Source of the DNA: an uncultured Porphyromonadaceae bacterium | GTDB taxonomy: Bacteria; Bacteroidota; Bacteroidia; Bacteroidales; Muribaculaceae | Direction: 5' to 3' | Assembly (NCBI GenBank): GCA_947573485.1 | Contig: CANPGB010000022.1 | Coordinates: 1 to 53,714 of the forward strand | Length of the DNA: 53,714 bases | Shown: piece by piece, positions 28,661 through 47,800 of the stretch | Numbering within the stretch: the stretch's first letter is position 1 | How the letters are laid out: every line of letters begins with the position of its first letter | The notes under the pieces: model-generated | What the model was told of the DNA's origin: nothing | Databases searched by the model: none | The model's input: only the letters and a program-made list of their open reading frames with translations | Made by a program: the position numbers and the translations under genes

Positions 28661-29794
28661 TTATCGCATCAGGAAAGCGATGTGGCCGGGGATATCGCCC
28701 GTGGTGGCAGTCCATTTGAGCTTGCCGCCCTTGGTGTAGCAGCGGATTTCGCCCGACGACACATAGTTGCGAGCGTCGGTGATGAAGATGTCGCCCGTGG
28801 CAGGCTGCACCGCAAGTGCATACGGAGCCATGATAGTGCTCTCGGTGCCGTCGGTTATGAAGTCGGCGCCGCGTGTGCAGGTCTTGGTGTCGATAGTGCC
28901 GTAGAGATTCACGGCGTTCCACGATGCGTCGTAAACCGTAGCGTAGTAGTAGATAGTATTGCCCGCAATGGTGAGGTTGGTGCAGGGCAGATCGAGAGCT
29001 TTGGGCTCGCCGTACTTGCCTGCGCCCTCGCGGGTGAGCTTGTAGAGATTCGAGGGAATCTCGGAGTAGTTGCCGCGCGAGCTTACCCACATGTTGCCCT
29101 CATCGTCGAGGCGCAGGTGGTGCATGTTCACGTCCACGGCGATGCTGCCCGTCATGGTGAAGTCCGACAGACGCACTACCGAGATAGTGTTGTCGTAGTC
29201 AGGAGCCTGGAACTGGCCCGAGTTGGCAACGTAGAGATAGCCGTCGGCAATAACCATTTCCTCGGGCTGGAGACCGACAGAAACCTTGCCGGTGATTTCG
29301 AGAGTGCGGGTATTGAAGCGAACGATAGAACCGCAGTCGCCCTCACCGCCCACAAACGAGCTCACATAGGCGTTGTCACCGTCGAAAGCTATGTAGCGGC
29401 ACGAGGCGATGTCAACCTGACCGATGCGGATTGCGGTAGCGGCGTCCATAACCTCTACCTTGTTCGAGCCGTTGACCACGGCATAGAGGCGACCGTCGTG
29501 AACGGCGATATCGTTGCCAGTGTCACCTAACTCGAGAACGGCTGTAGGGTTACGCTCGGCATAGAGGTTGCGCACATACCATGCCTTCGAGTAATCATAA
29601 AAATCGATAGTACATTTGTTAGAACCCATGTTGCCCTCGTTGAGCACATAGATGCCGGCCACCGGGCCTTTGCTGTCGGGTTGCTCTTCGGCTATGGGTT
29701 GGTAATCAGCCGGAATAATCTCCGGATCATCGTTGTTGCAAGAGGCTGCTCCTGTTGCAAGAACTGCAAAAATGAGAAGGTGCTTAAGTTTCAT
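28661..29794 (-). CDS. BtuG-like YncE/DUF5074 beta-propeller lipoprotein
   Basis: 377 residues. Lipobox TGAASC (Cys19), then a seven-bladed YncE-type propeller: GIYVLNEGNMGSNKCTIDFY, GNDIAVHDGRLYAVVNGSNK, VEVMDAATAIRIGQVDIASC, VGLQPEEMVIADGYLYVANSG, and closing GKLKWTATTGDIPGHIAFL. From memory this is very close to the Bacteroides surface lipoprotein BtuG, which binds cobalamin outside the cell and hands it to BtuB. No BtuB gene and no riboswitch adjoin it here. It stands alone with its own -7 box and terminator. The cobalamin role is inferred by family; other DUF5074 proteins are uncharacterised. Confidence 0.8.
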   Translation of the reverse strand: MKLKHLLIFAVLATGAASCNNDDPEIIPADYQPIAEEQPDSKGPVAGIYVLNEGNMGSNKCTIDFYDYSKAWYVRNLYAERNPTAVLELGDTGNDIAVHDGRLYAVVNGSNKVEVMDAATAIRIGQVDIASCRYIAFDGDNAYVSSFVGGEGDCGSIVRFNTRTLEITGKVSVGLQPEEMVIADGYLYVANSGQFQAPDYDNTISVVRLSDFTMTGSIAVDVNMHHLRLDDEGNMWVSSRGNYSEIPSNLYKLTREGAGKYGEPKALDLPCTNLTIAGNTIYYYATVYDASWNAVNLYGTIDTKTCTRGADFITDGTESTIMAPYALAVQPATGDIFITDARNYVSSGEIRCYTKGGKLKWTATTGDIPGHIAFLMR

Positions 29795-29896: not shown

Positions 29897-30007
29897 TTAT
29901 ACCGCACTTTCTATAGCAACTTTGAGCTTCTCAACATCAAGCCCTCTTTTGTAGCACTTTTTAAGTGATTTCTTGAACCTATTTGAATAGGATAGACTGT
30001 AGCTCAT
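29897..30007 (-). pseudogene. Truncated YafQ/RelE-type toxin remnant
   Basis: A 36-codon frame starts at ATG 30007 and reads MSYSLSYSNRFKKSLKKCYK then RGLDVEKLKVAI, after which it meets a stop at 29897. The N-terminus matches the start of YafQ-type mRNA interferases, which are about 90 residues long. The catalytic C-terminal half is absent: the following bases do not resemble the family in any frame. Its ATG overlaps the antitoxin stop (ATGA), as in intact modules. It is therefore a decayed toxin. Confidence 0.7.
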
Positions 30008-30213
30008 ATGCCGAGAATTTGCTGGAACATCTCATCGACATCTTTGCACGAAGTCACCCGGCCACCCTTTACATCTTCATAAGCCTCTTCAATGCCGCTC
30101 TTTTTGGGTGTCTTCGCGGCTTTGGCGATAGAAACCCCATCGATGGCATTAAGAATCTTCTTGAGATGCGGTAGTATTGAAATATCTTCAACGTTGATTG
30201 TCAGCTGAGTCAT
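30004..30213 (-). CDS. Orphan antitoxin-like protein (partner of the truncated toxin)
   Basis: 69 residues from ATG 30213 (MTQLTINVEDISILPHLKKI); an upstream start at 30252 would add 13 residues and is less likely. The size, the short N-terminal strand plus helices, and the ATGA overlap with the YafQ-like remnant fit a RelB/DinJ-type antitoxin of Bacteroidota. With the toxin broken it may be non-functional or act on other toxins. Confidence 0.65.
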   Translation of the reverse strand: MTQLTINVEDISILPHLKKILNAIDGVSIAKAAKTPKKSGIEEAYEDVKGGRVTSCKDVDEMFQQILGI

Positions 30214-31588: not shown

Positions 31589-31629
31589 GAAAAAATACCG
31601 GCGGCATCTCATCGCGAGGTGCCGCCGGT
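31589..31629 (-). terminator. Intrinsic terminator of the LRR/T9SS gene
   Basis: ACCGGCGGCA and TGCCGCCGGT (31597-31606 with 31620-31629) form a stem that on the minus strand is followed by TTTTTT. It lies 29 bases after the stop at 31658, so the LRR gene is transcribed alone. Confidence 0.87.
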
Positions 31630-31657: not shown

Positions 31658-34600
31658 TTATTTCACTATCAGGCGCTCGCTTATGCTGCGGCCCTCGTGC
31701 TCATAGCGCACAAGGTAAAGGCCGGCTGAGAGCAACTCCACATTTACTGTTGTCACATCGCCATCGGCTTCGGCAGTAAGGGCGAGAGCTCCGGCTGCCG
31801 AGTAAATCTCTATGCGCCCTTCGGCGGCAACCTTGAAGTAGCTGCTTGCCGGGTTGGGGTAGAGCTTCACCTCGCGCACGGCAACGTTTTCCACGCCTGT
31901 GGGGTAGTAGGTGGTGAAGGTGTGCACCGCATCGGTATAGGCATTGTCACCTGTCGTGTGGCCAAGGCGGTACTCGTAGGTCGTGTGGTAGTCGAGGCCC
32001 GTAAGATTGGCCTCGTAGGTGGTGGCTGCAGCGCGGGGAGCGCGGGCACGCACGGCTGCTGCTGCGGCGGTATTCTCGTTTTCGAAATAGTCTTCCACGG
32101 GCAGAATCTCACCTTCGTAGTCAATCCACTCTTCGTCGCCCTGCTTGCGGTACTGCAAGGTGTGGCCGCCGAAGTGCTCGTCGAGGAAGAGCTCTATGTC
32201 GGCCTTGCGGAAGACTTCCGGAACAGCCTCCTCGGCAAAGTCATAGGCGCTAACGTCGAGCCCGATTTCGGGAGTGAAGCGTATGGTGGCCGATTCATGG
32301 GTAGGCGCTACCTCATGCTCTTCGGGATAGGTGACAGCCACAGGGATTTCTTTAACGGCGTAGGGGAACTTGCTGCCAAGACCCATAAGAACATAGTGCT
32401 GCTTGATGGGGGTGAATACCTCATGAGGCGTTACGTTCCAGTCATATTTGAAATTCTGAATACCGTTGGCAACAGCCGTTGTCGGCTCCTTGATGGCGTC
32501 CCACACAATGTGCTTGTCGGCATCGAGTGCTTCTGCCAACGAATAACCGTTGCCGGCTGCCGCCATGCTGTTGATGCTCGGTCCGAGTACGAGTTCCTCA
32601 AATGCCGCAGGAGTATAATTGCCTATTATGCGGCGCTCCAGGGTCTCAACACCGTCTTCAAGTGTCAGTCTCTTGAGATTGGAGCAGGAAGAGAAGCAGA
32701 ATGCAGGGATTGTTTTTACACTGCCGGGTACCGTGACTTCCACAAGGCCGGAGCCTGAGAAAGCGCTCTCTCCCATGCTTTCAAGACCCTCGGGGAGCTC
32801 TATCGCTTTAAGAGCCGTCGTGCCGTTGAAGCTCTGAGTGCCTATGGTCTTCAATGTCGAGGGCACGCGCACTTCCTCTATGCGGGAGTTGTACCAGAAC
32901 ATATAGTCGGGTACAGCCTCGATGCCGTCCTCTATATAAACCTTTGTGAAGCCCTTGGCATAACCGAAAGTATATGTTCCGTAGGTAACGCCGCTTCGGA
33001 GAGTGAGGGTATTGTCGGGCACATCGAGCGTTGTGGCTCCGAAACCGTTCTTGCCAAGATAGCTGAGCTTATCGCTGAGCTTTATAACGCCACCGAGGTC
33101 GCCGTAGGTTGCAAAGCACTCGTCGCCGAGGTATTCGAGATTGGCGGCGGTGAAATCAGGCAGCTTAATTCTGTAGCTGTTGTCGAAGGCTCGTTTGCCG
33201 AGCCGGGTTACTTTGTCGGTGACAAGCGGGCAGCTCGTCATCCAGCCGTTGAAGGCGGAGTCGGGGATTTCGGTAATCTTACACTCTCCTTCGCCGGTAA
33301 GTTGAAGCTGGGTGATATTTGAGTTATAGAACACACCGGCGCCGAGGCTCTCTACCGATGTGGGCACATTTACCACCGACACAAAATTCTTGGTCGAGGC
33401 AAAAGCATAGCGGCCAAGGTGCTTGATGTGCATGGCCGGGGCATCGTTGGGCGCTACGAGCGTCACAATGTACTTCAGGTTGGTGGCATTATTGCCGGCG
33501 CCAATGTTGATAAAGGCGAAGTCGCCAATGCCCGTCACCTTGTACTCGATGTCATCGTAAGTTACGGTTACAGGTATGCGTAGCATTATGGCGATACTCG
33601 AAGTCGCGTCGGGGAGCACATACGGGGTCTGCAGGTTGAAAGCAAAGGCCGCGGGAGTGTCGCCGGGGTATGCCACCTCTACCTCGCTGTTCTTAGTCGA
33701 GGTCACACAGTACCAATAGTCGCCCACCTGGAATTTTGTGCCCACGCTGGCAGGCTCTTTAATCTCTTCGATGTTGGCGAAGTCGCTCCACCCGGTGGCG
33801 TTGCGGTAGGCGTCGGCGCTTCCGGCAGGAACGTGCAGTGTGGCGTCGGCCTTGATGCCTGCAAAGACTCCGGCGGGAATAGCGGGCGGTGTCAGACGCT
33901 CAACGGTGAAATCGCTCATCAGGTAGCAGCCGCTGAAGGCATACTCGCCTATCTTGTTCACTGTGGCCGGAATGGTGTAAGAGCTGATGCCGGTGCCTGC
34001 GTAGTAGGCATCGGGAATATACCCGAAACCCTCGGGGAATGGCACCGCCGAAAGACCTGCACAGCTGTCGAATATCGACACGCCGGTGAGGTCGGTGGGC
34101 TTCCAGTCTGCCGGGAAGATTGCCTGCGAGAGGTAGTCGCAACCGGCAAAAGCGCGGTCGCCGACATAGGCCAGGGCGCCACCGTTGACAATCACTGTGG
34201 CAAGGTTGGTGGCGTTCTCAAAGGCCTTGTCGCCTATATACGAGAGCGAGGCTGCCGAGAAAAAGCGCACGTTGGAGCCCTTGAAAGCTCCGTCGGCAAC
34301 GCCAAGCACGCTGTAGTTGGCACCTCCGTTGCTCACGGTGGCAGGAACATCAACAAAATCGCTTGTGGCGCCGATTACTTCCACGGCATTTTTGCTTGAG
34401 TTGAGCACGCGATAGGTGACGCCGTTGGCGGTAAAGGTCTCGCCCGATGCCGCGGCGGGTTCGGCATAGAGCTCTTTCCAGCTGTTGTCGCCACCGCTGA
34501 AACTTGTGAACATCCACCCGTCCACACTCCCTTCGCTGAGCTCACGTGATGAGGCGCCTAATGGCGAGTAGCCGAATTCCTCGTCGAACGAATCCTTGCA

Positions 34601-35173
34601 CCAGTAGCTCCAATAGCCGCTGTACCAGCCCGATTGCCAGATGTCATCGGCATCGTAGGCCGTCCATGAGTCATAGTTGTAAGCTGTTGTGGTCACCGCC
34701 GAGGTAGAGTGATCAGGTGTGTGGATCTCGCCGTCTTTCACGAGGGCTATGTTGCGGTCGCAGTCGGCATCCCAGCCGAACCCGGCAACGGTGTAACCCA
34801 AGTCGGTGAGGTGGGTGAGGAAGTAGAGCTGTGGGTTCGAGGCCACTACGGCGTTTATCATGTCGATACCGTATTTGGTGCCGTCGTAGCGGTAGCCGAA
34901 GACGCGCGCATAGTTTTCGCCTGCGCTGTTCCACTGTATTACAAGATAGGAAGCCTGCGAGCCGCTCCCGCTCCAGTTTTCTACCAGTGAGGCATCGAAG
35001 CCCTGATCCTCGCCGTCGGGAGGCGTGGGGTTCATAAGGTCGTCGTCGCTCGTCAACGCGGCTGCTTTCATCGGGGCGACCGGCCCGGGCCACGGCTGGC
35101 CCTGCACGGTGCGGGCGTTGGCCGTCGGCATAAGGGCGGCCAATGCAAGAATTGTGGTAAAAAGTTTATTCAT
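31658..35173 (-). CDS. Large BspA-type leucine-rich-repeat surface protein with T9SS sorting domain, under a cobalamin riboswitch
   Basis: 1171 residues from ATG 35173 (MNKLFTTILALAALMPTANA, signal peptide); an in-frame ATG at 35218 lacks a signal. Residues about 72-236 form a separate domain rich in aromatic residues (YLVIQWNSAGENYARVFGYR, DDIWQSGWYSGYWSYWCKD, ELSEGSVDGWMF). About 250-890 are LRR_5 repeats of BspA type (TIPATVNKIGEYAFSGC). A fibronectin-III-like part (about 940-1080) and a T9SS type A sorting domain (KLYPNPASSYFKV to the end ERLIVK) follow. It should be exported by T9SS and attached to the surface. The upstream cobalamin riboswitch suggests a part in corrinoid uptake; no such LRR protein is known to me. 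Confidence 0.88.
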   Translation of the reverse strand: MNKLFTTILALAALMPTANARTVQGQPWPGPVAPMKAAALTSDDDLMNPTPPDGEDQGFDASLVENWSGSGSQASYLVIQWNSAGENYARVFGYRYDGTKYGIDMINAVVASNPQLYFLTHLTDLGYTVAGFGWDADCDRNIALVKDGEIHTPDHSTSAVTTTAYNYDSWTAYDADDIWQSGWYSGYWSYWCKDSFDEEFGYSPLGASSRELSEGSVDGWMFTSFSGGDNSWKELYAEPAAASGETFTANGVTYRVLNSSKNAVEVIGATSDFVDVPATVSNGGANYSVLGVADGAFKGSNVRFFSAASLSYIGDKAFENATNLATVIVNGGALAYVGDRAFAGCDYLSQAIFPADWKPTDLTGVSIFDSCAGLSAVPFPEGFGYIPDAYYAGTGISSYTIPATVNKIGEYAFSGCYLMSDFTVERLTPPAIPAGVFAGIKADATLHVPAGSADAYRNATGWSDFANIEEIKEPASVGTKFQVGDYWYCVTSTKNSEVEVAYPGDTPAAFAFNLQTPYVLPDATSSIAIMLRIPVTVTYDDIEYKVTGIGDFAFINIGAGNNATNLKYIVTLVAPNDAPAMHIKHLGRYAFASTKNFVSVVNVPTSVESLGAGVFYNSNITQLQLTGEGECKITEIPDSAFNGWMTSCPLVTDKVTRLGKRAFDNSYRIKLPDFTAANLEYLGDECFATYGDLGGVIKLSDKLSYLGKNGFGATTLDVPDNTLTLRSGVTYGTYTFGYAKGFTKVYIEDGIEAVPDYMFWYNSRIEEVRVPSTLKTIGTQSFNGTTALKAIELPEGLESMGESAFSGSGLVEVTVPGSVKTIPAFCFSSCSNLKRLTLEDGVETLERRIIGNYTPAAFEELVLGPSINSMAAAGNGYSLAEALDADKHIVWDAIKEPTTAVANGIQNFKYDWNVTPHEVFTPIKQHYVLMGLGSKFPYAVKEIPVAVTYPEEHEVAPTHESATIRFTPEIGLDVSAYDFAEEAVPEVFRKADIELFLDEHFGGHTLQYRKQGDEEWIDYEGEILPVEDYFENENTAAAAAVRARAPRAAATTYEANLTGLDYHTTYEYRLGHTTGDNAYTDAVHTFTTYYPTGVENVAVREVKLYPNPASSYFKVAAEGRIEIYSAAGALALTAEADGDVTTVNVELLSAGLYLVRYEHEGRSISERLIVK

Positions 35174-35188
35174 ATGCTTGTATAGCTG

Positions 35189-35212
35189 GTTGATAAAGAA
35201 TCCGTTATCAAC
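35189..35212 (-). promoter_or_regulatory. Hairpin just before the LRR gene start, possible expression platform
   Basis: GTTGATAA and TTATCAAC (8-bp perfect stem, 8-base loop) end 15 bases before the ATG at 35173. It may sequester the ribosome-binding region when the riboswitch is bound. The whole gap 35219-35665 holds this leader, the riboswitch and its promoter. Confidence 0.45.
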
Positions 35213-35411
35213 AACCATGCAGCCTGCTTCAATAGTCAGGCACCTCTTTGTGGGGATGTGGGATAGGCCGGAGCAACCACTCCTGCCATACAGCTATACC
35301 GGTCTGCCGCCAGTGGTATACTGTGGCTCGACCATAATAATGTACCCTTAGCTTAAATCCTCGTAAGCAATGCCCGGCAGATATTCACCGGCAACAGGTT
35401 GTAGCCATTGG

Positions 35412-35612
35412 CTTACAGGATAGGTCTTCCGGCTTATCTCCTCGGAGGCTTCGCCTTCCCACGGCGCGGGAGTTGGTTCTCTCGTGGGCCGCAGTGGCAT
35501 TGTGAAGCTCCTCAGGCGGAGAAATACGGCAGCGGGACTGCCGGGGATTCTGACCCCGTTCCCTGCCGACGACTCGCTCGTCGGCCGACCCTTGCGGGTC
35601 GCTTCCTGTAAG
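35412..35612 (-). promoter_or_regulatory. Cobalamin riboswitch (B12-box RNA)
   Basis: On the minus strand the conserved cobalamin aptamer blocks appear in order. The P1 stem CCTGTAAG/CTTACAGG (eight perfect pairs, 35412-35419 with 35605-35612) closes it. Inside are GGGAA, then GGGTCAGAATCCCC, CAGTCCCGC with TGCCGT, the B12 box TGCCACTG, GGGAAGG and GCCGGAAGACC. It is transcribed from its own promoter (35631-35662) and leads into the LRR/T9SS gene 238 bases further, which ends at its own terminator. When cobalamin is bound, expression should fall, as for known riboswitches of this class. Confidence 0.93.
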
Positions 35613-35630
35613 TGTGTCGCAATGACAGCG

Positions 35631-35662
35631 CAAAGTTATGAATAATTTATCTCTCTACCAAA
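35631..35662 (-). promoter_or_regulatory. Canonical promoter of the riboswitch-LRR transcript
   Basis: Minus strand TTTG (35662-35659), 20-base gap, TAACTTTG (35638-35631). The -33 box lies just after the stop codon of the HTCS gene, so the LRR gene is independent of the HTCS. Confidence 0.82.
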
Positions 35663-35665: not shown

Positions 35666-38600
35666 TTATGACTCCGGCGGATATTGCCCGGGGGTGCAGC
35701 CGAACATCGCCGCGAAGCATTTCGAGAAGTACGACGACGAGCTGAACCCTACCATATACATCACCTCGCTCACCGAGAATTTCTTCTGTTCGAGCAGCAC
35801 GGCAGCCTTGCGCAGGCGCGTCTGGCGTATGTAGTCGACCGGCGGCACACCCATGTATTTCTTTATGAGGCGGTAGAGCGACTTTGCGGGGAGGTCGACC
35901 GCGCGGCAAAGGAAGTCAACATTAAGGTCGGGGTTCGAGATATTGTTCTCTATCACCTCCGTAACCTTGGCGAGCTGCTTCTCGGCGGCACTCTCGGCAG
36001 CGCTTTCGGCAGCAGCGGTGGTGCCGCTGTCGTCAGAGGGTATCTTGCTGCGGTTGCGCCGCGAGCGCTCGAGAAGCTGCCGCACCTTGGCTGTGAGCAC
36101 TGGTGTCTCGAAGGGTTTGGGCATGAATGCGTCGGCACCGGCGCTTATGCTCTCGCTGTGCACCTCGGGGCTGTCGTTGGCCGTGAGCAGAAGTATGGGC
36201 ACCCCGGCCATGGCGGTGTTGGCGCGAAGGCGGCGGCACATCTCAAGACCCGACATCACCGGCATCATCTCATCGGCTATGATGAGGTCGGGGCGGAAAC
36301 TTGCAGCCACGGCGAGGGCGGCCTTGCCGTTAGATGCCACAGCGCAGTTGCACTCGCCCGAGAGTACCGACGATATAAACGCGGCTATCGAGCGGTTGTC
36401 GTCCACAATAAGCACGCGCGGGCGGCGGTCGCTCTTGCCGGCACCTTCTTCGGCATTGGCGGCTGTCTCTTCCGAGGCCTCGTCGCCCATGGGCAGACGC
36501 AGGCGGAAGGTCGAACCCTCGTCAACGCGGCTCTCCACGCTCACCGTGCCGCCGAGCAGGGTGGCATACTGCCGCACAAGGTAGAGGCCTATGCCCGTGC
36601 CCTCGCGGCTGCCTGCCGTGCGCGGCGAGCGGTACATGCGCTGGAACACGAGCGACAGCTCTTCGGCGGGTATGCCCACGCCGTCGTCGCTGACGTCAAC
36701 GGTGAAATAATCGCCGTCGCGGGCTACCGAGAGTGCCACGGTAGCGCCCTCACGGGTATATTTTATGGCGTTGGAAATGAGGTTGCTGACAAGCGACTCG
36801 AGTTTCACGGCATCGATGCGCACATAGATGTGTGGCTCGGGTGCGGTGAACACAAAGTTGCGAGCCTCGACGGTCGAGCGGCGGTAGCTGTCGAATATGT
36901 CGCGGCAAAATTCCACGGCATCGATGCGCGAGTAGATGAGCATATTCTCGTTGTGCAGCTCCATGCGGTTTATCTCCACCGTCTGGTGTATGAGCGAGTT
37001 AAGTTTTATGGCGTTCTGGTAGGCCGTGTCTATGTCGGCCTTGGCCTCATCGGCGCCCTCGCCGGTGCGTATCTTGCTCAGAGGCCCTATGATCATTGAG
37101 AGAGGTGTCTTGAGCTCGTGCGAGATATTGGCAAGGAAGAACATGCGGTTTTCAACCGTGGCGAGCACGCTGGCGCGCTCGAGCTCCTCGATGCGGCGCT
37201 GCTGGCGCCGCCGTTGCCACATTACCAGGGCCGTGACAAGTGCCATGGCGGCTATGAGATATAAGGCGATGGCAGTCTTGGTGAGATACCATGGGCGGGC
37301 AACGTTGATGTTCACGCTGCGGCGGCTCGACGGCACTCCGGCCACGGCAAGTTCGAGCGTGTGTTTCCCCGAAGTGAGGGTGGTGAAGCCTATGCTGTTG
37401 CACCCCTGGGCGAGAAGTTGCCAGGTGCTGTCGTTGTCGAGGCGGTAGCAGAAACGAAGGTAGCGGCCCGGCGAAAATTCGTCGGTAGAGAGGTCTATGC
37501 TCACGTTGCGGTTGTGCGCGGGCAGCTCGGGGAGGCTCTCCTGGCCGGGGATTACAGTGGCGCGGGTGTCGCCTTCGGTCATGGTCACGCTGCCTAACTC
37601 GCTTTGGTAGTGCTCGGCAAGAAGTCGCCCCGGCTCTACGAGCACTATCTCGTCGTCGGCGCCGAGTATTGCCATTTGCGACTGCGGGTCAAAGTAGATT
37701 GCCGTGTAGTTCTTGGCGGGCAGGGCAAGCAGACGAGCCTCCATATCGGCAGGGTCTATGCTGAACACGGCCGCCGAAGTCGCAACCCACAGTTGCCCTT
37801 TTATTATTCCCATGGCCTTTACCGATTCATCGCCGGTGCCGAAGGGGAAGCGTGCAGGCCGCGATTCTATGGTGCCGTCGGGTTCCATATATACAACTCC
37901 GCCGTAGAATCCGCACCAGAGCCCTCCCCCGGGTGCCGGGCAGAGCATTACGGGCTCTTCACCGGTAATCTCGCGCACCGGCACACGTGTGAGCGCCTGC
38001 GTACGGCTGTCGATGCGTGTGAGCGCCGAGTCGCGGAAGTGCAGAACCCACTTGTTGCCGTCGCTGTCCTGCACCATTTGCCCTATGAGGTCGTTGGCAA
38101 TTGCACCCCCGAGGGTCGAGAATACGGTGTCGGCGGTGTGTGTGGTGCCCTCACGGTGGAAACGGTCGAGCCGTTCGCGGAAAATGCCACCGAGATAGCC
38201 TGCCACCCAGAGACTGCTGTCGGCCGCATCCTCGAGTATGCCGTAAGCCCAGTTGGCGTTCAGGCGGTGACGGCGGTCGGCCATGCGGTGATTCACAAAG
38301 CGGGCCTTGCCGCGCTCGTAGATGTTGATGCCGCCGTCGGTGGCGACGCGCAGCTCGCCGTCAGATGATTCCATGATGTCGCGTATGCGGTTGTGCGATA
38401 TTCCTCCGTCGGCGGGCATGAACCACTTGGCTTTCTCGCCGCCGCCAAGACGGATGAGGCCGTTGGTGCCACCGAGCCACAGGTAGCCCCGGCTGTCGCG
38501 AAGTATATTGTAAACCTGCTGCCCGGCGCCACTGCCCGTGAGGTCGGCGATAGGGAACACGCGCACCGGCGACCACGGGTCAACGATACTCAGCCCTACC

Positions 38601-39529
38601 TCGGTACCGCACCACACATTGCCTTCGCTGTCGACCTGCAGCGACCACACCACATTCGACGCTATCGACGAGGGCATGCGCGAGTCGTGGCGGAAGACTG
38701 CAACCTTCCCGCCCGGCCCGAACTCAAGCAGCCCGTGGTCGGTGCCCGCTATAATGGCGCTGTCGGTCAGTGCGAGCGATTTCACTATATATCCTTCCGA
38801 CCCCGCCACAACGCTCGTCGCCCCGGTGCGGGGGCTGTGGCGTAGCAGTGCCCCCTCTGTGCCGAGGTAGATTTCCCCGGAGGGAGCCTGCGCGAGAGCG
38901 TTCACAAAAAGGTTGCCGGCGGCCGGTGCATAACCGCTGCAGTTCAAAATCCGTGCGTCGGAGAGGCGCCGGTCAAGAGCCACAGCGCCGTTGTATGTTC
39001 CCACATACACCGTACCCTCGGCGCTGCGCAGAAGGCTGTACACGGCGCGGTGGGGCAGTAGAGGAGTGAGGTCGGCAATGGCTCCGCTAACTATGTTATA
39101 GGAGCGCAAGCCCGAGAGAGAACCTATGAGAAGTGTATCGCCGTCGAGCAGCAGTGAGCGTATCTCGCGCGGGAAATCGCCCTCAACCCACGTCACTTCG
39201 CCCTTGTCAGGGTCGAGCATGAAAAGCCCGTCGTTGCAGCCTGCATATATGCGGCCGTCGGGAGCCTCGGTCATGGCATATACCTGCGCCTGGAAAGTCC
39301 ACCCCTCGCACCGCGCGGCGTAAGCCTGATAGCCGTTGAACTCGTAGAGCCCCGAGGTTGTGCCTATCCAGTTGCGCCCCGAGCTGTCGCGGAAGATGTC
39401 GAAAACCGCGTTGGGCTTGCTGCCTATATCGTAGTTGAACCAGCACAGACCCTTGCCCGGCGACATGCCCGCCGCGCCGGGGAGCAGCCCCGCAACAAGG
39501 AGCGCGAGTATGATGAGCCTCCGTATCAT
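35666..39529 (-). CDS. Hybrid two-component system regulator (HTCS)
   Basis: 1287 residues in one polypeptide. Signal peptide; periplasmic two-component propeller (about 25-690; repeated W-G/T-T-x-x-G-L motifs such as WIGTTSGLYEFNGY) and a Y_Y_Y domain; a membrane helix near 745-765 (IALYLIAAMALVTALVMW); HisKA with His804 in ANISHELKTPLSMI; HATPase with NAIKYT and DDGVGIPAEEL; a receiver domain (VLIVDDNRSIAAF, Asp1086 in IIADEMMPVMSG); and an AraC HTH (about 1185-1285, GFSSSSYFSKCFAAMFGCTPGQY). All key phosphotransfer residues are present. It should sense a glycan breakdown product and activate the susCDEF-like operon upstream. Its start overlaps the MscS gene by ATGA. Confidence 0.95.
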   Translation of the reverse strand: MIRRLIILALLVAGLLPGAAGMSPGKGLCWFNYDIGSKPNAVFDIFRDSSGRNWIGTTSGLYEFNGYQAYAARCEGWTFQAQVYAMTEAPDGRIYAGCNDGLFMLDPDKGEVTWVEGDFPREIRSLLLDGDTLLIGSLSGLRSYNIVSGAIADLTPLLPHRAVYSLLRSAEGTVYVGTYNGAVALDRRLSDARILNCSGYAPAAGNLFVNALAQAPSGEIYLGTEGALLRHSPRTGATSVVAGSEGYIVKSLALTDSAIIAGTDHGLLEFGPGGKVAVFRHDSRMPSSIASNVVWSLQVDSEGNVWCGTEVGLSIVDPWSPVRVFPIADLTGSGAGQQVYNILRDSRGYLWLGGTNGLIRLGGGEKAKWFMPADGGISHNRIRDIMESSDGELRVATDGGINIYERGKARFVNHRMADRRHRLNANWAYGILEDAADSSLWVAGYLGGIFRERLDRFHREGTTHTADTVFSTLGGAIANDLIGQMVQDSDGNKWVLHFRDSALTRIDSRTQALTRVPVREITGEEPVMLCPAPGGGLWCGFYGGVVYMEPDGTIESRPARFPFGTGDESVKAMGIIKGQLWVATSAAVFSIDPADMEARLLALPAKNYTAIYFDPQSQMAILGADDEIVLVEPGRLLAEHYQSELGSVTMTEGDTRATVIPGQESLPELPAHNRNVSIDLSTDEFSPGRYLRFCYRLDNDSTWQLLAQGCNSIGFTTLTSGKHTLELAVAGVPSSRRSVNINVARPWYLTKTAIALYLIAAMALVTALVMWQRRRQQRRIEELERASVLATVENRMFFLANISHELKTPLSMIIGPLSKIRTGEGADEAKADIDTAYQNAIKLNSLIHQTVEINRMELHNENMLIYSRIDAVEFCRDIFDSYRRSTVEARNFVFTAPEPHIYVRIDAVKLESLVSNLISNAIKYTREGATVALSVARDGDYFTVDVSDDGVGIPAEELSLVFQRMYRSPRTAGSREGTGIGLYLVRQYATLLGGTVSVESRVDEGSTFRLRLPMGDEASEETAANAEEGAGKSDRRPRVLIVDDNRSIAAFISSVLSGECNCAVASNGKAALAVAASFRPDLIIADEMMPVMSGLEMCRRLRANTAMAGVPILLLTANDSPEVHSESISAGADAFMPKPFETPVLTAKVRQLLERSRRNRSKIPSDDSGTTAAAESAAESAAEKQLAKVTEVIENNISNPDLNVDFLCRAVDLPAKSLYRLIKKYMGVPPVDYIRQTRLRKAAVLLEQKKFSVSEVMYMVGFSSSSYFSKCFAAMFGCTPGQYPPES

Positions 39530-40701
39530 TTGACGCGTGAGAGATCGGTGCCGGCAGGCGTCTGGAACATCGAGAGGCCAAATTCACCCACTACGGCGTA
39601 AACATGGTCGAAAATATCGGAAGCTATGCCCTCGAACGGCGTCCAGTCTACATTGGTGATAAAGAAGTAGAGCTCTATGGGCAGCCCCGACGGCGTGGGC
39701 TCGAGTTGGCGCACTATCGTCGTCATCTTATGGTTCACGTCGGGGTGAGAGGCAAGGTAGGCCGCCAAATAGCGGCGCAGAAGTTGCAGATTCACCACGC
39801 GCGCAGCCTGCTCGGGCTCTATGCCCTCAAGCCAGCCTTTGGCGCGGAGCGACTCGAGCTCTTCGGGCGTGCAGAAGCGTATGGTGTTGATGTCGATGTA
39901 GATAGGCCTCGTCACGCGGCGTCCGCCCGAATCGCGCATCGGCTGGTAGTTGCGGAACGACGATTTTATGAGCGTGTAGGGCGGCACGGTCGACACCGAG
40001 TTATCCCAGTTCTTGACCTTTACGGCAGTGAGAGTCACCTCGAGCACCTCGCCGTTAACATCGTTGGCCTTGGTCTCTATCCAATCGCCTCGGCGCAGCA
40101 TATTGTTGGCCGTGAGCTGGATAGAGGCCACGAGCCCCAGTATAGTATCCTGGAACACCAGCATGAGCACCGCTGCCGAGGCACCCAAGGCTGCGATTAT
40201 CACCGTAGGGCTCTTGCCTATGAGTATGCTCAGCCCTATGATTGTCCCGATGCAGATAAAGATGAGCTTGAACATCTGGAAAACACCCTTCACGGCATAC
40301 ATGCGAAGCTGTGGCCGCTTGAGGAAAGCCGTGTAGAGGTTGCCCGTGACTATCACAAGTATACGTACAAAAGCCCACAGTATGTAGAGAGAAGTCAGCG
40401 CCGATAGCCACCGCAGCGACGAGGGCGTCTCGCCGAAGAGACCCGGCAGAAGCCAGTTCACAGCCATGGCAGGCGCCAGTTGCGACACTGCCCGAAGCAT
40501 CCGCGGGTCAAGAAGGTCATCGTCCCACTCCGTAGGGCTGCGCAGAATAACCCGCTCGACTATTCTCAGCAAAGTCTTGCATATATAATAAACCGCCACC
40601 GAGCCCGCGGCTATAGCCACCAAGAGCAAAGTGTTGATTATCGCGCCGCTGAAGCTGCCCGTGATATGTTCGTGCAGGAAAGGTCGTATCGTTTCAAGCA
40701 T
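39526..40701 (-). CDS. Mechanosensitive ion channel (MscS/YbdG type)
   Basis: 391 residues. Several hydrophobic helices up to about residue 165, then the pore and beta-domain signature: IIAALGASAAVLMLVFQDTILGLVASIQLTANNMLRRGDWIE and GEVLEVTLTAVKVKNWDNSVSTVPPYTLI. It resembles the larger YbdG-type MscS channels that open under osmotic stress. The gene lies between the SusF-like gene and the HTCS and is translationally coupled to the latter by ATGA. A canonical promoter precedes it. Confidence 0.92.
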   Translation of the reverse strand: MLETIRPFLHEHITGSFSGAIINTLLLVAIAAGSVAVYYICKTLLRIVERVILRSPTEWDDDLLDPRMLRAVSQLAPAMAVNWLLPGLFGETPSSLRWLSALTSLYILWAFVRILVIVTGNLYTAFLKRPQLRMYAVKGVFQMFKLIFICIGTIIGLSILIGKSPTVIIAALGASAAVLMLVFQDTILGLVASIQLTANNMLRRGDWIETKANDVNGEVLEVTLTAVKVKNWDNSVSTVPPYTLIKSSFRNYQPMRDSGGRRVTRPIYIDINTIRFCTPEELESLRAKGWLEGIEPEQAARVVNLQLLRRYLAAYLASHPDVNHKMTTIVRQLEPTPSGLPIELYFFITNVDWTPFEGIASDIFDHVYAVVGEFGLSMFQTPAGTDLSRVK

Positions 40702-40726
40702 AGGATGTGCAAAAAGGATTTATTTG

Positions 40727-40758
40727 CAAAACTACGAAAAAAATGTCTATCAGGCAAA
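40727..40758 (-). promoter_or_regulatory. Canonical promoter of the mscS-HTCS operon
   Basis: Minus strand TTTG (40758-40755), 20-base gap, TAGTTTTG (40734-40727). The -33 box overlaps the T-run of the susF terminator. Confidence 0.75.
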
Positions 40759-40790
40759 AAAAGCACCGGCGTCCTTGCGGGCGCCGGTGC
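40755..40790 (-). terminator. Intrinsic terminator of the susCDEF-like operon
   Basis: GCACCGGCG and CGCCGGTGC (40763-40771 with 40782-40790), a nine-pair stem followed on the minus strand by a T-run. It ends 32 bases after the stop of the SusF-like gene. Confidence 0.85.
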
Positions 40791-40821
40791 CGTTGCTATG
40801 TCGTGTCAGTGACGCGGAAGT

Positions 40822-42306
40822 TTACTTCTTGGTCACTACGAGGTGTGCGGGATAAGTATCGAAGTGGAGCTCGAAGCTGTACTTGCCGGCCTCCTCGATA
40901 TTCAGGTTGCCGCCGTTTTGAACGATGTCGTCCTCAGCGCCGCCGTAGCTGTAAGTCCAGGCGTGGTCAACGCAGAACTTGTATTCGCCTGCGGGCATGT
41001 CGAGATTGTCGATAGTCCACACGTTGCACTTGGCGTTGGTGGCTGTCAGCTCGAGAGCGGTTGCGGCATCCCAGTTGTTATACTGGCCGATGATCTGAAT
41101 CGAACCGATATATGTGCCGGTGTAGGTGAGCGATGCGATGTCGGCGGTCACATAGTAGAGGCCGCGGTTGGCAACGCGCATCATCGATGAGCCTGCGTTG
41201 TCGATCTGCATCTTGCCGTTGAAGTTCTTGGTGGCCTCGTCGGTTTCGATTGCACCGTCGGGACGGTAAACGATACCGCGGAGGTTGGCCTGACCGGTGA
41301 ACCAGAAGTTGGTCTGCAGATAGAGTGTACCGCTATAGTGGATATAGTCGGTGGTTGCAAGGCGGAGCATCTGGTTGAAGTTGGTGGTCGAGTAGCCTGT
41401 GGCAGGAATCCAGAGGTTGTCGAAGGCGAGCATTACCTCGAACTTGCGGGTCTCCATGTTCACCTTGATCATAAACGAGCTCTCGGTGTCGATGGTGTAA
41501 GCGCGGGTCTCTGCCTCGGGAGCCTCAAGGAGGTTACCGGTGGTGCTCGATACGGTCGACGAGAGGTCGGCAACACCGAAGGCGCCTTCCCAGCTGTTGG
41601 CCTTGTACGACGATTCGGGGATGAGTTTCCATGAGTAGCCGCCGGCTGCAACGTCGGCCTCGGTCACGTCAACCTTGAGATAGAAATCAGGATTGTCGTA
41701 AACGTTGCCCTCGTTGAGGTGGTGCATCTTCACGGCTTTCTTGATATCCCAGTCGCAGAAGTTGCCTACAATGTAGTAGTCTTCCTCGATGAGGTTGGCC
41801 TGCGGGTTGGGGAGAACGGTGTACTCACCCTCGTAGAAATATACGTCGGGGCCACCGATGCGGGCGGTGCTGGTGCCCGATACGGCATAAGCCGCAACTC
41901 GGGTGTAGAGAGGCTTGGCAACGAGGTCCTTGCTCACAAGGCCGTTGAAAATCTGCTGGAGCTCGCCTGCGCGGAGGCTTGCTGTGCCCTCGTCAAGGGT
42001 GAGGGTGGCAGTTTCAGTCTTGGCAAAGGTGTCGTCGGCCGAGAACTCGCTCACAAGCTGAAGTTCGTAGCTGGCGGGGAAGTCTTCCAGAAGGTAGGAG
42101 AAGAGGTTTACGGGCTGACCGGCTGCGGTGAGCGCAGGAAGGTCGATAGTGCCGTCAACGAGGTTGGTCAGCTGAAGACCGTCGGTCTGGAAAACGGCTT
42201 CGGGTTCGTTGCTCTGACCCGGAGGGTTAGGCAGGGTGTATTCGTCGCAGGAGACAATCCCCATGCAGGCGAGCGCCGTAAGAGCTATAAAAGAAAATTT
42301 CTTCAT
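40822..42306 (-). CDS. SusF-like outer-membrane glycan-binding lipoprotein
   Basis: 494 residues. Lipobox GIVSC (Cys20). The N-terminal part is a SusE/SusF Ig-like domain; then come repeated starch-binding-like beta domains that begin YYIVGNFCDWD (about 180) and SIQIIGQYNNWDAATALELT (about 400), with a final YKFCVDHAWTYSYGG and HLVVTKK. SusF-type proteins hold glycan at the cell surface without cutting it. Last gene of the susCDEF-like operon, followed by a terminator. Confidence 0.85.
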   Translation of the reverse strand: MKKFSFIALTALACMGIVSCDEYTLPNPPGQSNEPEAVFQTDGLQLTNLVDGTIDLPALTAAGQPVNLFSYLLEDFPASYELQLVSEFSADDTFAKTETATLTLDEGTASLRAGELQQIFNGLVSKDLVAKPLYTRVAAYAVSGTSTARIGGPDVYFYEGEYTVLPNPQANLIEEDYYIVGNFCDWDIKKAVKMHHLNEGNVYDNPDFYLKVDVTEADVAAGGYSWKLIPESSYKANSWEGAFGVADLSSTVSSTTGNLLEAPEAETRAYTIDTESSFMIKVNMETRKFEVMLAFDNLWIPATGYSTTNFNQMLRLATTDYIHYSGTLYLQTNFWFTGQANLRGIVYRPDGAIETDEATKNFNGKMQIDNAGSSMMRVANRGLYYVTADIASLTYTGTYIGSIQIIGQYNNWDAATALELTATNAKCNVWTIDNLDMPAGEYKFCVDHAWTYSYGGAEDDIVQNGGNLNIEEAGKYSFELHFDTYPAHLVVTKK

Positions 42307-42336
42307 GTCTGTTTTATTCGCTTATCTGTGAGAGGA

Positions 42337-43239
42337 TTATTCTGCAGTGAATGTCGCTTCGTTGGTGTTGAGGTCTACCTTGAACTGGAGCGGACCGCAA
42401 TAGTTGGGGAAGCTGAACGAGTCCTTGGTCTTGGCCAAACCGTGGGTGAGGGTGTTGCCTGCAACAAAGTCGGGGAACTCTACAGGGGTATCGCTGTCGC
42501 TACCGCCCGAGCAGCCTACTGAGCTGTTGTCCCAGCCGTCGAGGGCTGTGTAGAAGCGGAAGATACAGCCGGCATCCTCAACGGTGAAGGTGATGTTGCC
42601 GTAGTAGATCTTGCTGCGTACCTCATCGTCTTTCTCTGAGAGTGCATAAGGCTCAAGGGCTGCTTCCTGGGCAGCTTCGGGGCTGATCCAGTCGCCTGCA
42701 TAGTTGCCGATTACCCAGATCTGACCGGGCTTGGGCACTGAGAAGAACGACTGAACGCGGTTGAGAGAAGTGCTGTTGGAAGTAGCTACCCAGCTCTCCT
42801 CGATACCTTCGATATAAGCTACACCGCGGAAGTATACCTTCTCTTCGCCCTGGTCAACGTAGTCCTCTTTCTCTTCCCAGCCGTGAAGCTTGGTGATAGC
42901 CTCGGCGAGGTCGAGCTGGCTGAGGGTCATGCGCGACAGTGTGCCGGTGCCGGTAGGAGTAAGTTCGGGCGAATTCTCGTCGAAGTTACCGTCAAGCGAC
43001 ACCTGTGCGCGGTACTGTGTCACTGCCGAGAAACCGTACGAAGGCTGACCGTTGAGAACGAGCTCGAAGGTGCCGTCTTCGGTAAGCTGGATATACTGGT
43101 CCTGCATCGCAGGGGCGTAGATCTGGAAAGTGGCAGGGTCGGGCTTCTGCAGTACAGGCTCGGTTACCTGGTCGCACGAAGCTGCGCCGCAAAGCACGGC
43201 GGCACATGCCATTACCGTATATATCTTGTTGAATTTCAT
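42337..43239 (-). CDS. SusE-like outer-membrane lipoprotein
   Basis: 300 residues. Lipobox GAASC (Cys22). The N-terminal SusE domain (about 35-165: FQIYAPAMQDQYIQLTEDGT, YRAQVSLDGNFDENSPEL) is followed by a short glycan-binding-like domain (IWVIGNYAGDWISPEAA). The protein should help to bind the polysaccharide that SusC/SusD import. The starts and stops in this operon are 22-30 bases apart, typical of a single transcript. Confidence 0.87.
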   Translation of the reverse strand: MKFNKIYTVMACAAVLCGAASCDQVTEPVLQKPDPATFQIYAPAMQDQYIQLTEDGTFELVLNGQPSYGFSAVTQYRAQVSLDGNFDENSPELTPTGTGTLSRMTLSQLDLAEAITKLHGWEEKEDYVDQGEEKVYFRGVAYIEGIEESWVATSNSTSLNRVQSFFSVPKPGQIWVIGNYAGDWISPEAAQEAALEPYALSEKDDEVRSKIYYGNITFTVEDAGCIFRFYTALDGWDNSSVGCSGGSDSDTPVEFPDFVAGNTLTHGLAKTKDSFSFPNYCGPLQFKVDLNTNEATFTAE

Positions 43240-43269
43240 ATTCAGATGAATGATTCTCTATTGATAAAA

Positions 43270-44814
43270 TTAATATCCGGGATTCTGTCCCACGGTTTCA
43301 ACATACTGGTAAGGTATGGGGTAGAGGGCGCGGTACTCAGGCAGCGAGGCTCCTTCGTAAACACCGTTTTTCCACGACCACAGATAGCTGCCGCCGGTAA
43401 AGCGGCCGAAGCGGATGAGGTCCTGGCGGCGCTGGCCTTCCATGTAGAGCTCGCACTGGCGCTCCTTGAGGAGGTCGTCGGTGGTAAGGCTCTTCAGGGG
43501 CTCCATCTTGGCACGCTCACGCACGAGGTTGAAGTACTTCAGACCATCGCAGTTAACACCGTTGAGCTGGCACTCGGCGAGCATAAGGTAGGTGTCGGCA
43601 AGGCGGAAAATGGGGTAGTCGGTGTTCGATACCTGGGTGCCGTTGTTCTCGAGACCTTCGGTGTTGGTGTAGTCGTCCTCGGTGGTGTTGGTGTATTTGA
43701 TGAGCATGTAGCCGCAAGAGTTCTTGTCGTAGGAGGCAAGGTCAGGAATATCTTCCTGGAAAGTGCCCTCGTAGATAAGACGGCGGTTGTCGCCCTTGAG
43801 AGCACGCGAAAGCTCGGGACGAAGACGGATACCCGACCATACTGTACCCTGGCTGTTGAGGCTCGTGAGAACATCGGCAGGAACGGTCTCGATCCAGGCT
43901 CCTACAGTGAGGTAGGTGGTGCCGCCCCATGTCTCCATGCGGCCCTGCTGCTGGGGCACTGCCCACAGAATCTCGCCGTTGCCTACATACTTGTCGTTGG
44001 AGGCGCAGAAGAGATATTTATATTCGGGAGCAAGCTGGATGCCGCTCTTGATAACTTCCTGGCAAGCTGCGGCGCACTCTGTCCACATGGCGGTGCCGGT
44101 GTAGACCTCGGCGTTGAGGTAGAGCTTGGCAAGAAGCATATAGCCTGCCTCGCGGCTTACGCGGCCATAATCCTGCTGTGCGGCAGGCTTGAGGTCGTCG
44201 ACGCAACCTTTGAGCTCGGCTACGGTAGCCTCGAAGAGCTGGGTGCGGTCGTAGGTGGGAGGTATGGCGCCGGTCACCGAGGTCTCGTCGATCCAGGGGC
44301 CGCGGCCATAGAGGTCAATCATGTAGTAGTAAGCGAGGCAACGGAGTGCACGGGCCTCGGCGATGCGGGCCTTTACCTCGTCGGCGTCATAGAACTGTGC
44401 GCCTGCGCCCTGCATGCCGCTGATATACTCGGCACCCATCTTGGCGTTGAAGAACTCGCGGGCGAAAGCGGCGTAGATCCATTCGTTCTCGTTTGTCCAC
44501 TGCGCGAAGTTAAGCACCACGTAGCCCGGGTCGTTCCATTTGTCGGAGATGAAGCACTCGTCGGTCATCAGCTCCTGCAGGTTGAAGTGCGTACGGGTAA
44601 ACGTACCGGCACCGCCGTCAGAAGTCGAGATTACGTCGTCGCGGTAGAGATTGCCGTAGAGGCGGGCAAGGAAGCCATCCCACTCTGCCTTGGTGTCAAG
44701 CTCAAGCTTGTTGTTGGGGTCGTTGGGCTGAAGGTCAAGGTCGCCTACGCACGAGGTAGCGCCTACTACCAGTAAAGCCAATGCACCAACTATGATATTT
44801 TTGTTGAATTTCAT
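43270..44814 (-). CDS. RagB/SusD family nutrient-binding lipoprotein
   Basis: 514 residues. Lipobox GATSC (Cys22). SusD TPR helices and signatures are visible: AEARALRCLAYYYMIDLYGRGPW, REAGYMLLAKLYLNAEVYTG, YPIFRLADTYLMLAECQLNG, FNLVRERAKM, LLKERQCELYMEGQRRQDLIRFGRF. It forms the lid of the SusC transporter encoded directly upstream. The ending (YRALYPIPYQYVETVGQNPGY) is the usual SusD C-terminus. Confidence 0.95.
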   Translation of the reverse strand: MKFNKNIIVGALALLVVGATSCVGDLDLQPNDPNNKLELDTKAEWDGFLARLYGNLYRDDVISTSDGGAGTFTRTHFNLQELMTDECFISDKWNDPGYVVLNFAQWTNENEWIYAAFAREFFNAKMGAEYISGMQGAGAQFYDADEVKARIAEARALRCLAYYYMIDLYGRGPWIDETSVTGAIPPTYDRTQLFEATVAELKGCVDDLKPAAQQDYGRVSREAGYMLLAKLYLNAEVYTGTAMWTECAAACQEVIKSGIQLAPEYKYLFCASNDKYVGNGEILWAVPQQQGRMETWGGTTYLTVGAWIETVPADVLTSLNSQGTVWSGIRLRPELSRALKGDNRRLIYEGTFQEDIPDLASYDKNSCGYMLIKYTNTTEDDYTNTEGLENNGTQVSNTDYPIFRLADTYLMLAECQLNGVNCDGLKYFNLVRERAKMEPLKSLTTDDLLKERQCELYMEGQRRQDLIRFGRFTGGSYLWSWKNGVYEGASLPEYRALYPIPYQYVETVGQNPGY

Positions 44815-44836
44815 ATTGAGAATTGTTGCTGTCTGT

Positions 44837-47800
44837 TTAGAAATTAGCCACTACACCGAGTGTAACGGAGATAGGACGGGGATAAACATTGTTATCGATA
44901 CCTTTCTGGAAAGTTACTTCGGGGTCAAGACCCTTGTAGCCGGTGATCACGAAGGGATTCTGAACGGCACCGAAAAGACGCAGACGGAGCTGGTTCTTCA
45001 GCAGGTTCTCCCAGGTGTAGCCAAGGGTGATGTTGTCGCAGCGTACAAACGATGCGTTCTGTACCCAGTGGCTCGAAAGCATAAGGTCGGTGGTGCGGGT
45101 CTGCTCGAAAATGTAGGTGTTGTCGAGGATATTGCTCAGAGGTGCGGTTGCGGTTACCGAAACAAACGAGTTGCTCATCATGTTCTGGTTGTAGTTCCAG
45201 GCACCCCATGCGCCGCGGAGAACGAAACCGAAGTCCCAGTTCTTGTAGGTGAAGGTGTTGTTCCAGGTGGCGGTGATGTCGGGGAGGGCGTTGTGGTAGT
45301 AGATGCGGTCCGACTGGTCGATTACACCGTCGGCGTTCTGGTCTACATACACACCTTCGAGAGGATTGCCTGCGGCATCGTAAACCTGCTCATATACATA
45401 GTAGGTGTATGCGGCCTGGCCTACAACGTGCTTCTGCGACATTACACCGTTCGAGATAAAGCCGGTGGCGGTGTCGGCACCCTCGGCAAGGCGGGTTACC
45501 TTGTTCTTGTTCCAGGCAATGTTCACATTGGAGTTCCATACGAAATCCTTGGTGACAACGGGGCGGGTGTTGAGGTTGAACTCGATACCCACGTTCTCGA
45601 GGTCGCCTAAGTTGATGTAACCGGTGTTCGAGAGGTTGGAGCCTGCGGGGTAGTTGGCATATACAAGGAGATCGGTCGATGTACGCTTGTACCAGTCGAG
45701 GCTACCGTTGATGCGGTTGTTGAGGAAGCCGAAGTCAACACCCACGTTCCATGTGTGGGTCTCCTCCCACTTCAGGTCGCCGTTATATTTGTTGGGGTAG
45801 GCAATCTGAACGTAGTTGGGAGTGCCGTCGGGGTTGTAGCCGATAGGATAGGTGTTGCTTTCGTTGGTGAGGATAGAGTAGATAGGCAGGTAGGGATAGT
45901 AGTCAGAGCCGATGTTCTGCTGGCCGGTAACACCATATTCGCCGCGGAGCTTCAGTTCGCTCAGCACGCCGCGGGCGCCTTCCATGAAGTCTTCTTCAAG
46001 AATCTTCCAGCCGAGAGCCACTGCGGGGAATGTACCCCAGCGGTTGTCCTTGCCGAAGCGCGAGGTACCGTCGTAGCGGAGGGTGGCGGTAAGCAGGTAG
46101 CGGTCCATGAAAGTGTAGTTCACACGACCGAAGAACGACAGAAGCTGATAGTGGCTCTTGCTGTAGTACTTGGGCGAGTAGTTGTAGCGGGCAAAACCGC
46201 GGAAGGTGTCAAGAAGTTCCTGAGCGTTGGCAGCGGTGGGGTCGATGCCAAGCTGTGCGTAGGTGGCGTTGGCAATGGCGGGGTCAACCTCGTTGAAGTT
46301 GTTGCTCGAGAAGTTGAAACGCTGCCACGAGTAACCGGCGGTTACATCGAGAGCCGACTTGATAGCCTGGAACTCCTTGTTGTAGTTCAAGTAGAAGTCA
46401 AGAAGAAGGGTGTAGTTCTGGGCTGCTTCCTTGGTGCGCGATGCGTAGCCTTTCTTGAAGTTTACGCTCTCGGCGTCGGTCGGGTTGAGCTCGGCCGGGA
46501 GGTTGGGGAAGTCGGCAGCCTTGATGCTGAAGCCGTTGAGCCAAGCCTGCGGACCGAAAGCGGTGTTGAGGTTGGCGCACTCACCGTGCGAGTAGTCGTA
46601 GCCGAGGTTGAGGTTGGCGCGAAGTTCCTTGAGGAAGGGCATCTTCAGGTCAACCTGGAGGTTACCTACGCTCTGGTATACTTTCGACTTGCTGTAGTAC
46701 TCATAGATGAGCGAAACGGGGTTCACTGCTGCAAGAATGTTGATGCTTGTGCCTGCGTCACCGGGTACGGCGATAGCACCGCCCGAGGTGTAGGTTGTCC
46801 AGTTGTTGAAGATGTTGGGGCTGTGTACGGGGAGGGTGGGGTTGAAGCCTACGGCACCGCCGAGCGAGCCCTGGTCGTAGTTATTGGTGATGTAAGAACC
46901 CTTGAGGTTGACGTTAACGCTCAGAAGGTCGTCGAAGAACTTCGGGGTGAGGTTGATCGACGCGCCTACACGCTGGTTGTCGGTCTCGCGGATTACACCT
47001 GCCTGGTTGCTGTAGTCAACGGCAACGCGGTAGGGGAGGAAGCCGGCAGTACCGCCCACAGAGAGGCTGTAGTCGTGGCTGAACGAAGTGCGCAGCACTT
47101 CTTTCTGCCAGTTGGTGTTGGCATTGCCGAGAGCGGCAGCCTGGGCGCTTTCTGCTCCGTAGCGGCTGGTGATGAACTCGCGGAAACGGTTGGCGGTCAT
47201 CATGTCCATGTAGTTGCGCGGGGTGGCAACATTGAAGTTGGCGGCGAAGCTCACCTGGGGCTTGCCGCTCTTGCCGGTCTTGGTGGTGATGATAATCACA
47301 CCGTTCGATGCACGGCTACCGTAGATAGCGGTTGCAGAGGCCGACTTGAGGATGGTCATGTTCTCGATGTTCTCGGGGTTGATCAGAGACAGGGGGTTCG
47401 ACGAACCGGTCACTGTGTTGCCTTCCATAGGCACACCGTCAACCACGATAAGAGGGTCGTTGGAGGCCGAAAGAGAGGCGCCACCGCGAATCTGGATGCT
47501 GGCGCCGCCGGCAGGGTCACCACCGTTGGTAGATACTACCACACCGGGGCTTGCGCCTACAAGGAGGTCCTGGGCTGTAGAGGCCAGACCGGCTTCGATT
47601 TCTGAAGGCTTCACAACGCCCACCGAACCGGTGGCGTCGGCTTTCTTTACTGTACCGTAACCTACGACTACGAGTTCGTTCATCGCTACGGTGTTGGTCT
47701 GCAGGTGCACTTCGATTTTGGTGCGGCCTTCAACAGGCACTTCCTGTGTGTCGCAGCCTACATACGAAATAACGAGTGTAGCGTCGGGGGCAACTTTAAT

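Follow-up and report, generated by a model that had tools for sequence, protein, structure and literature searches.

Gut bacterial communities are shaped by competition for cobamides. In an uncultured Porphyromonadaceae bacterium of the Muribaculaceae, a cobalamin riboswitch stands directly before a gene for a 1171-residue protein with leucine-rich repeats (LRR) and a sorting domain of the type IX secretion system (T9SS), and the question that this locus raises is what such a protein does under the control of vitamin B12. The locus lies on contig CANPGB010000022.1 of assembly GCA_947573485.1, which was analysed over its full 53,714 nucleotides (the window). We consider it likely that the protein is an extra cobamide catcher, switched by B12 and exported by the T9SS, which carries a cobamide-binding N-terminal domain (NTD) and is controlled separately beside the canonical btu operon.

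A cobalamin riboswitch leads into an LRR gene

The original prediction, made on the letters of the DNA, described on the minus strand a complete cobalamin aptamer with a P1 stem and three conserved blocks, a promoter of its own, a BspA-type LRR gene with a T9SS sorting domain as the apparent sole target and a terminator behind it. All these elements were recovered:

35631..35662 (-), Bacteroidota-type promoter TTTG-N20-TAACTTTG, from a pattern count against expectation
35604..35612 (-), 5' strand of P1, CUUACAGGA, pairing perfectly over nine positions (35612-35604) with 35420-35412
35402..35609 (-), cobalamin riboswitch aptamer, RF00174, model positions 1-189 of 189, 65 bits, E 7.4e-14
35357..35421 (-), alternative hairpin, candidate switch helix, -21.3 kcal/mol, occupying the 3' strand of P1 and mutually exclusive with P1
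31658..35173 (-), gene for the NTD-LRR-T9SS protein, 1171 aa, matching LRR_5, Por_Secre_tail and TIGR04183
34454..35008 (-), NTD, residues 56-240, candidate cobamide-binding module with a predicted intrinsic factor/transcobalamin beta-domain fold
about 32600..34300 (-), BspA-type LRR region, limits approximate, LRR_5 E 1.2e-57 in five stretches
31661..31864 (-), T9SS type A C-terminal sorting domain, residues 1104-1171, above both curated cut-offs
31597..31629 (-), intrinsic terminator hairpin followed by a U run, -25.2 kcal/mol, z -4.8

The full-length Infernal match to RF00174 (gathering threshold 31.5 bits) is the sole Rfam match of the window at gathering thresholds, and the 2.88 Mb genome holds only one other copy, upstream of btuB (78.5 bits). 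The pattern TTTG-N19-21-TANNTTTG, which we take to represent the Bacteroidota promoter consensus, occurs seven times in the window where 0.20 occurrences are expected; none of 100 shuffles reached seven.

A mechanical open reading frame (ORF) begins at 35218; the signal peptide judged by eye begins at 35173, the start that had been assigned before. The sorting domain scores 34.9 bits for Por_Secre_tail (PF18962, cut-off 27) and 36.8 bits for TIGR04183 (cut-off 23), and the genome encodes the T9SS pore SprA (SprA_N, 626 bits), the sole component of the machinery searched. Apart from LRR_5 and the sorting domain, the 1171 residues gave only a weak purple-acid-phosphatase N-terminal match in Pfam. 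The protein is probably secreted, and to judge from its sequence it would be exported by the T9SS and displayed at the surface. The terminator hairpin was missed by a simple terminator scan, probably owing to an internal mismatch in its stem. Since a convergent gene lies beyond the LRR gene, the riboswitch appears to have this gene as its single target.

How the aptamer acts on the gene was approached by comparing leaders. In 300 mononucleotide shuffles for each of 13 leaders, the pairing of the switch helix stood slightly above the shuffles only in the window (equally good pairing in 18/300, suggestive only) and in Barnesiella sp. An22 (L079; 16/300), and we therefore claim no general mechanism. 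A hairpin scan of the window leader found no U-run terminator; a hairpin with a long U run is present in the leaders of the genome's own btuB, of L102 and of L122. Taken with the shuffles, the lack of a U run means that the usual transcriptional termination is not supported for the window leader; control through translation or Rho-dependent termination is possible. Repression by cobamides is described for cobalamin riboswitches of Bacteroides thetaiotaomicron in passages of PMC12751083, and by analogy the window gene would be repressed in the same way.

The region directly upstream (35666-48007, minus strand) is a SusC/SusD-type locus that includes a hybrid two-component regulator. The stop codon of the regulator gene (35666) precedes the riboswitch promoter by about 4 nt, with no terminator seen between them, and read-through into the riboswitch is possible. 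The riboswitch could then be decayed or irrelevant, the LRR gene being driven from the upstream locus and B12 having no role. The missing U-run terminator and the aptamer score of 65 bits, below most RF00174 matches of relatives (many at 90-119 bits), fit such decay. However, the aptamer is full-length with a perfect P1, conserved blocks and its own promoter, the same arrangement is found in other genera, and in L102, from the same genus, the aptamer is still followed by a hairpin with a U8 run. We regard a decayed or irrelevant riboswitch as very unlikely.

The btu operon encodes a second copy of the N-terminal domain

The second RF00174 copy of the genome precedes a canonical locus, in which btuB is followed by genes for a BtuG-like DUF5074 protein, a protein of 424 aa, a DUF5074-propeller protein of 1256 aa and a further DUF5074 protein. 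By BLASTP, the window protein matches the 1256-aa protein with E 5e-22, over the N-terminal parts of both, so that what connects the LRR protein with the btu operon is a common module outside the LRR. These are the only two NTD copies found in the genome.

For the NTD, the predicted fold is that of the beta-domain with which intrinsic factor and transcobalamin bind cobalamin. In the fold comparison the B12 carriers rank first, with 8-14% identical residues across the first 14 rows. Pfam scans found no model that knows the NTD: DUF4430, the Pfam model of the carrier beta-domain, matched 0 of 56 NTD members at E <=10, in a search whose filters discard most matches with E greater than about 0.1. 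A Pfam scan of the 1171 residues found no alpha-domain of the kind that clamps the corrin, and sequence searches of the Protein Data Bank (PDB) with NTD profiles returned nothing relevant. With the predicted fold, but with neither Pfam recognition nor an alpha-domain, the NTD is not filed as a member of the transcobalamin family; it may nevertheless work like a beta-domain.

Three known surface proteins were rejected as identities for the NTD. BtuG does not apply because its DUF5074 propeller is absent from the window protein, and BtuJ because there is no DUF4465 match. BtuH was rejected by sequence, its structure 7biz being unmatched although the same library yields 7biz for a PKD protein of Bacteroides pyogenes. 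BtuH and BtuJ structures are also absent among the fold matches listed, which does not exclude them.

The C-terminal ~40 residues of the NTD weakly resemble the NCBIfam model SCO2322_fam in 48 of the 56 members (best E 1e-5; window NTD E 0.019, 15.4 bits against a cut-off of 85). The SCO2322 family, which presumably has a B12 context of its own, is a possible relative of the NTD in other phyla; no paper of the open-access literature searched names it.

Fold, conserved aromatics and gene context together suggest that the NTD binds cobamides. That it binds another ligand instead (heme, another tetrapyrrole or a glycan), the beta-domain fold being a general beta-grasp scaffold, seems to us extremely improbable.

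The NTD follows B12 riboswitches across relatives

In a family survey of 198 genomes, own genome included, the NTD was carried by 53, and RF00174 was then searched in the carriers. RF00174 is present in 191 of the 198 genomes; therefore its position is informative and its presence is not. In 46 of the 53 genomes a riboswitch lies up to 11 kb upstream of the NTD, on the contig and strand that carry it. In 31 of 48 riboswitch-NTD places the distance is 4.5-4.9 kb, the position of the fourth gene in the btuB operon of the window genome, and in eight genomes it is at most 410 nt, against a rough chance expectation of 0.24 of 53. Among the seven NTD genomes without an upstream riboswitch, at least four have <3 kb of contig upstream.

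A second survey, of named genomes, covered the best 80 of 260 relatives (the 80 loci) and overlaps with the first (L063=G135, L070=G042, L095=G025, L132=G066, L134=G049, L138=G003). By coordinates, from which contig identity was inferred, 74 of the 80 loci have RF00174 within 15 kb upstream; at least three of these are spurious (the matches of L111 and L126 fall past the end of the contig, and that of L131 is on a different contig, although its AdoCbl-II element is real). The six loci without a match (L068, L082, L092, L094, L115 and L139) all have 3.4 kb or less of contig upstream. A check for conserved boxes in the fetched DNA verified the riboswitch in 50 of the 80; it fails on L102 and L118, which Rfam confirms, and is therefore too strict. 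A regular-expression search was too insensitive, missing even the genome's own btuB riboswitch, and Rfam coordinates were used instead.

Moreover, 17 NTD proteins of the 80 loci are directly led by a riboswitch. An Rfam scan of 12 of these loci was positive throughout, with eleven RF00174 matches, one in a Verrucomicrobiota genome, and one AdoCbl-II match in a Candidatus Fibrimonadaceae genome. BtuB or BtuG homologues lie within the fetched flanks of 59 of the 80 loci. In B. pyogenes the NTD is a short protein of its own, in the gene order BtuB-BtuG-BtuH-NTD-DUF5074. It occurs in 21 of 49 genomes of the window's genus, and is therefore an accessory trait; in the genus of Bacteroides salyersiae, only 3 of 60 sampled genomes carry it, a count that bears no more than indirectly on BtuK (BT_1486/BT_1487) as a candidate identity of the NTD.

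At L131 (Fibrobacterota) there are two AdoCbl-II riboswitches (702-783 and 3965-4044), the first of which precedes the NTD gene; AdoCbl-II is thereby a second cobalamin riboswitch class tied to the NTD.

Partner domains change behind the riboswitch

A conserved pairing of riboswitch and LRR gene in related genomes, which the original prediction had proposed to look for, exists: besides the window genome, seven others (L065, L067, L070, L072, L079, L102 and L118) have an NTD-LRR gene, with LRR_5 according to Pfam, immediately behind a riboswitch matched by Rfam. L067 is B. salyersiae (LRR_5 668 bits), and L070 is cut by the contig end. L102 (G364), from the window's genus, is 31% identical to the window protein over a 946-column alignment (E 3e-97). 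In L063 one gene stands between the two, and the spacing in L064 is the same. LRR motifs were also counted by regular expression, which found at least four in 36 of 107 NTD proteins; as the window protein, a true LRR protein, scores only two, only Pfam-confirmed LRRs were counted.

Fifteen of the 17 directly led proteins were scanned with Pfam (some as duplicates among L044-L049; L131 and L142 left out), and seven of the 15 have LRRs. In the other directly led genes, the place of the LRR is taken by a DUF5074 propeller (L045, L046, L047, L120), by Big_2 domains (L086, L141), by two more NTDs (L049) or by nothing (L043, L044, L122). Because the partner domains vary behind the riboswitches, the NTD is the constant part.

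This bears on what the LRR protein is for. BspA-type LRR proteins are usually regarded as adhesins. The window protein could be a B12-regulated adhesin: its LRR would bind host or bacterial partners, B12 scarcity would serve only as a niche cue, and its NTD would attach to the BtuB/BtuG machinery or to the surface but would not bind the vitamin. PMC9723704, in the part consulted, says that LRR proteins act in adhesion. A further point favours this reading: according to passages of PMC12751083, no binding of cobalamin was seen for BtuL of B. thetaiotaomicron, from a cobalamin-riboswitch operon, so that riboswitch control alone is no proof of binding. However, it is the NTD and not the LRR that stays constant behind the riboswitches, and B12 carriers come first in the fold ranking of the NTD. 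We consider the adhesin unlikely.

Two loci have unusual arrangements. L049:2659-5157 (the same gene as L134:2659-5157) encodes a riboswitch-led 832-aa protein that consists of three NTDs in tandem plus a tail and matches nothing in Pfam. L086 has divergent, back-to-back cobalamin riboswitches, one (5128-5330, minus strand) towards a btuB homologue and the other (5367-5566, plus strand) before the NTD-Big_2 protein.

A proposed role in cobamide capture

The NTD-LRR protein probably helps to catch B12 outside the cell. When cobamide is scarce inside, the riboswitch, to judge from its class, would permit expression of the gene. The large protein would then cross the outer membrane through the type IX system, for which the sorting domain and SprA speak, and the beta-domain-like NTD would bind cobamides extracellularly. 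The LRR may be a spacer or docking arm that holds the NTD out at the surface; it might also stick to the host, to food or to cells nearby. The cobamide would finally be passed on to BtuG/BtuB, a job comparable to that of BtuG, BtuH and BtuJ. T9SS-delivered corrinoid capture had originally been guessed from the riboswitch; the guess gains support from an NTD common to the btu operon and from its predicted B12-carrier fold. The part likely to serve as corrinoid module is the NTD rather than the LRR.

A bolder version, which we hold to be rather unlikely, sees a modular bacterial counterpart of intrinsic factor in Bacteroidota and some Fibrobacterota and Verrucomicrobiota: a T9SS-exported beta-domain homologous to that of the animal carriers, with an exchangeable partner (LRR, BtuG-like propeller or second NTD) closing over the corrin in place of the animal alpha-domain. 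If so, gut bacteria would compete with the host using a binding module of the type that the host itself employs, and bacterial relatives would exist for the beta-domain of animal B12 carriers.

Neighbouring genes and the canonical operon

The window also holds a BtuG homologue near the LRR gene:

28661..29794 (-), BtuG homologue (DUF5074 propeller), PDB 8blw E 3e-37, 47.9% identical to the BtuG of the btu operon

It lies 1.9 kb beyond the LRR gene, separated from it by a convergent sugar nucleotidyltransferase gene, and has no riboswitch of its own. It is possibly a functional partner of the LRR protein. At about 29900-30210 (minus strand) a short antitoxin-like ORF is seen by eye, followed by an apparently truncated RelE-type toxin ORF. 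None of the other LRR_5 places of the genome is on a riboswitch-bearing contig.

The canonical btu operon of the genome is G000:C8:84000-98540 (L003). Its 424-aa protein has no Pfam match and has homologues in 61 of the 80 loci; two further DUF5074 proteins are encoded there.

Comparison with known systems

Riboswitch-controlled surface B12 catchers are already known in Bacteroides, and passages of PMC6143338 state that most accessory genes in the B12 loci of Bacteroidota lack a known function and that B. thetaiotaomicron takes B12 from human B12 carriers. In the open-access literature searched, mostly titles and the starts of abstracts, we found neither a cobalamin riboswitch before an LRR gene nor an intrinsic-factor-like domain in Bacteroidota. 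PMC9723704 contains both riboswitch and LRR terms, the riboswitch in the part seen preceding a TonB-dependent transporter, and the passages covered of PMC11575231 leave unnamed the targets of two of the four X. ruminicola riboswitches. As far as this literature reaches, what is new is a widespread unnamed domain of B12 loci with a predicted intrinsic-factor beta-domain fold, and its occurrence on LRR proteins of the T9SS that have a riboswitch to themselves. The NTD, widespread in B12 loci, thereby gains a testable ligand, its predicted fold links it to the human B12 carriers, and the results suggest that cobamide capture may extend to T9SS-exported LRR proteins.

With BtuG, BtuH and BtuJ, the surface cobamide-binding lipoproteins of B. 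thetaiotaomicron (PMC6143338, PMC10404256, PMC8941943 and PMC12751083, in the parts consulted), the NTD proteins share cobalamin-riboswitch control, an outer-surface destination (predicted for the window protein), genes beside btuB/btuG and an accessory, patchy distribution; BtuH too occurs fused to other domains. However, by sequence the NTD has no DUF5074, no DUF4465 and no match to the BtuH structure, and the window protein is predicted to be exported by the T9SS rather than as a lipoprotein, from a gene that stands alone and not in the btuB operon.

Compared with the beta-domain of intrinsic factor, haptocorrin and transcobalamin, the NTD is only 8-14% identical (first 14 rows), is unrecognised by Pfam, comes with no alpha-domain that we could find and is joined to LRRs, propellers or Ig-like domains. 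RUMGNA_00854 of R. gnavus (PDB 3u7z), entitled a putative metal binding protein, gave no sequence match to the NTD in the PDB searches. Finally, the window protein shares LRR_5 repeats and the type A sorting domain with the BspA-type LRR surface proteins of the T9SS, to which it adds the NTD and a cobalamin riboswitch.

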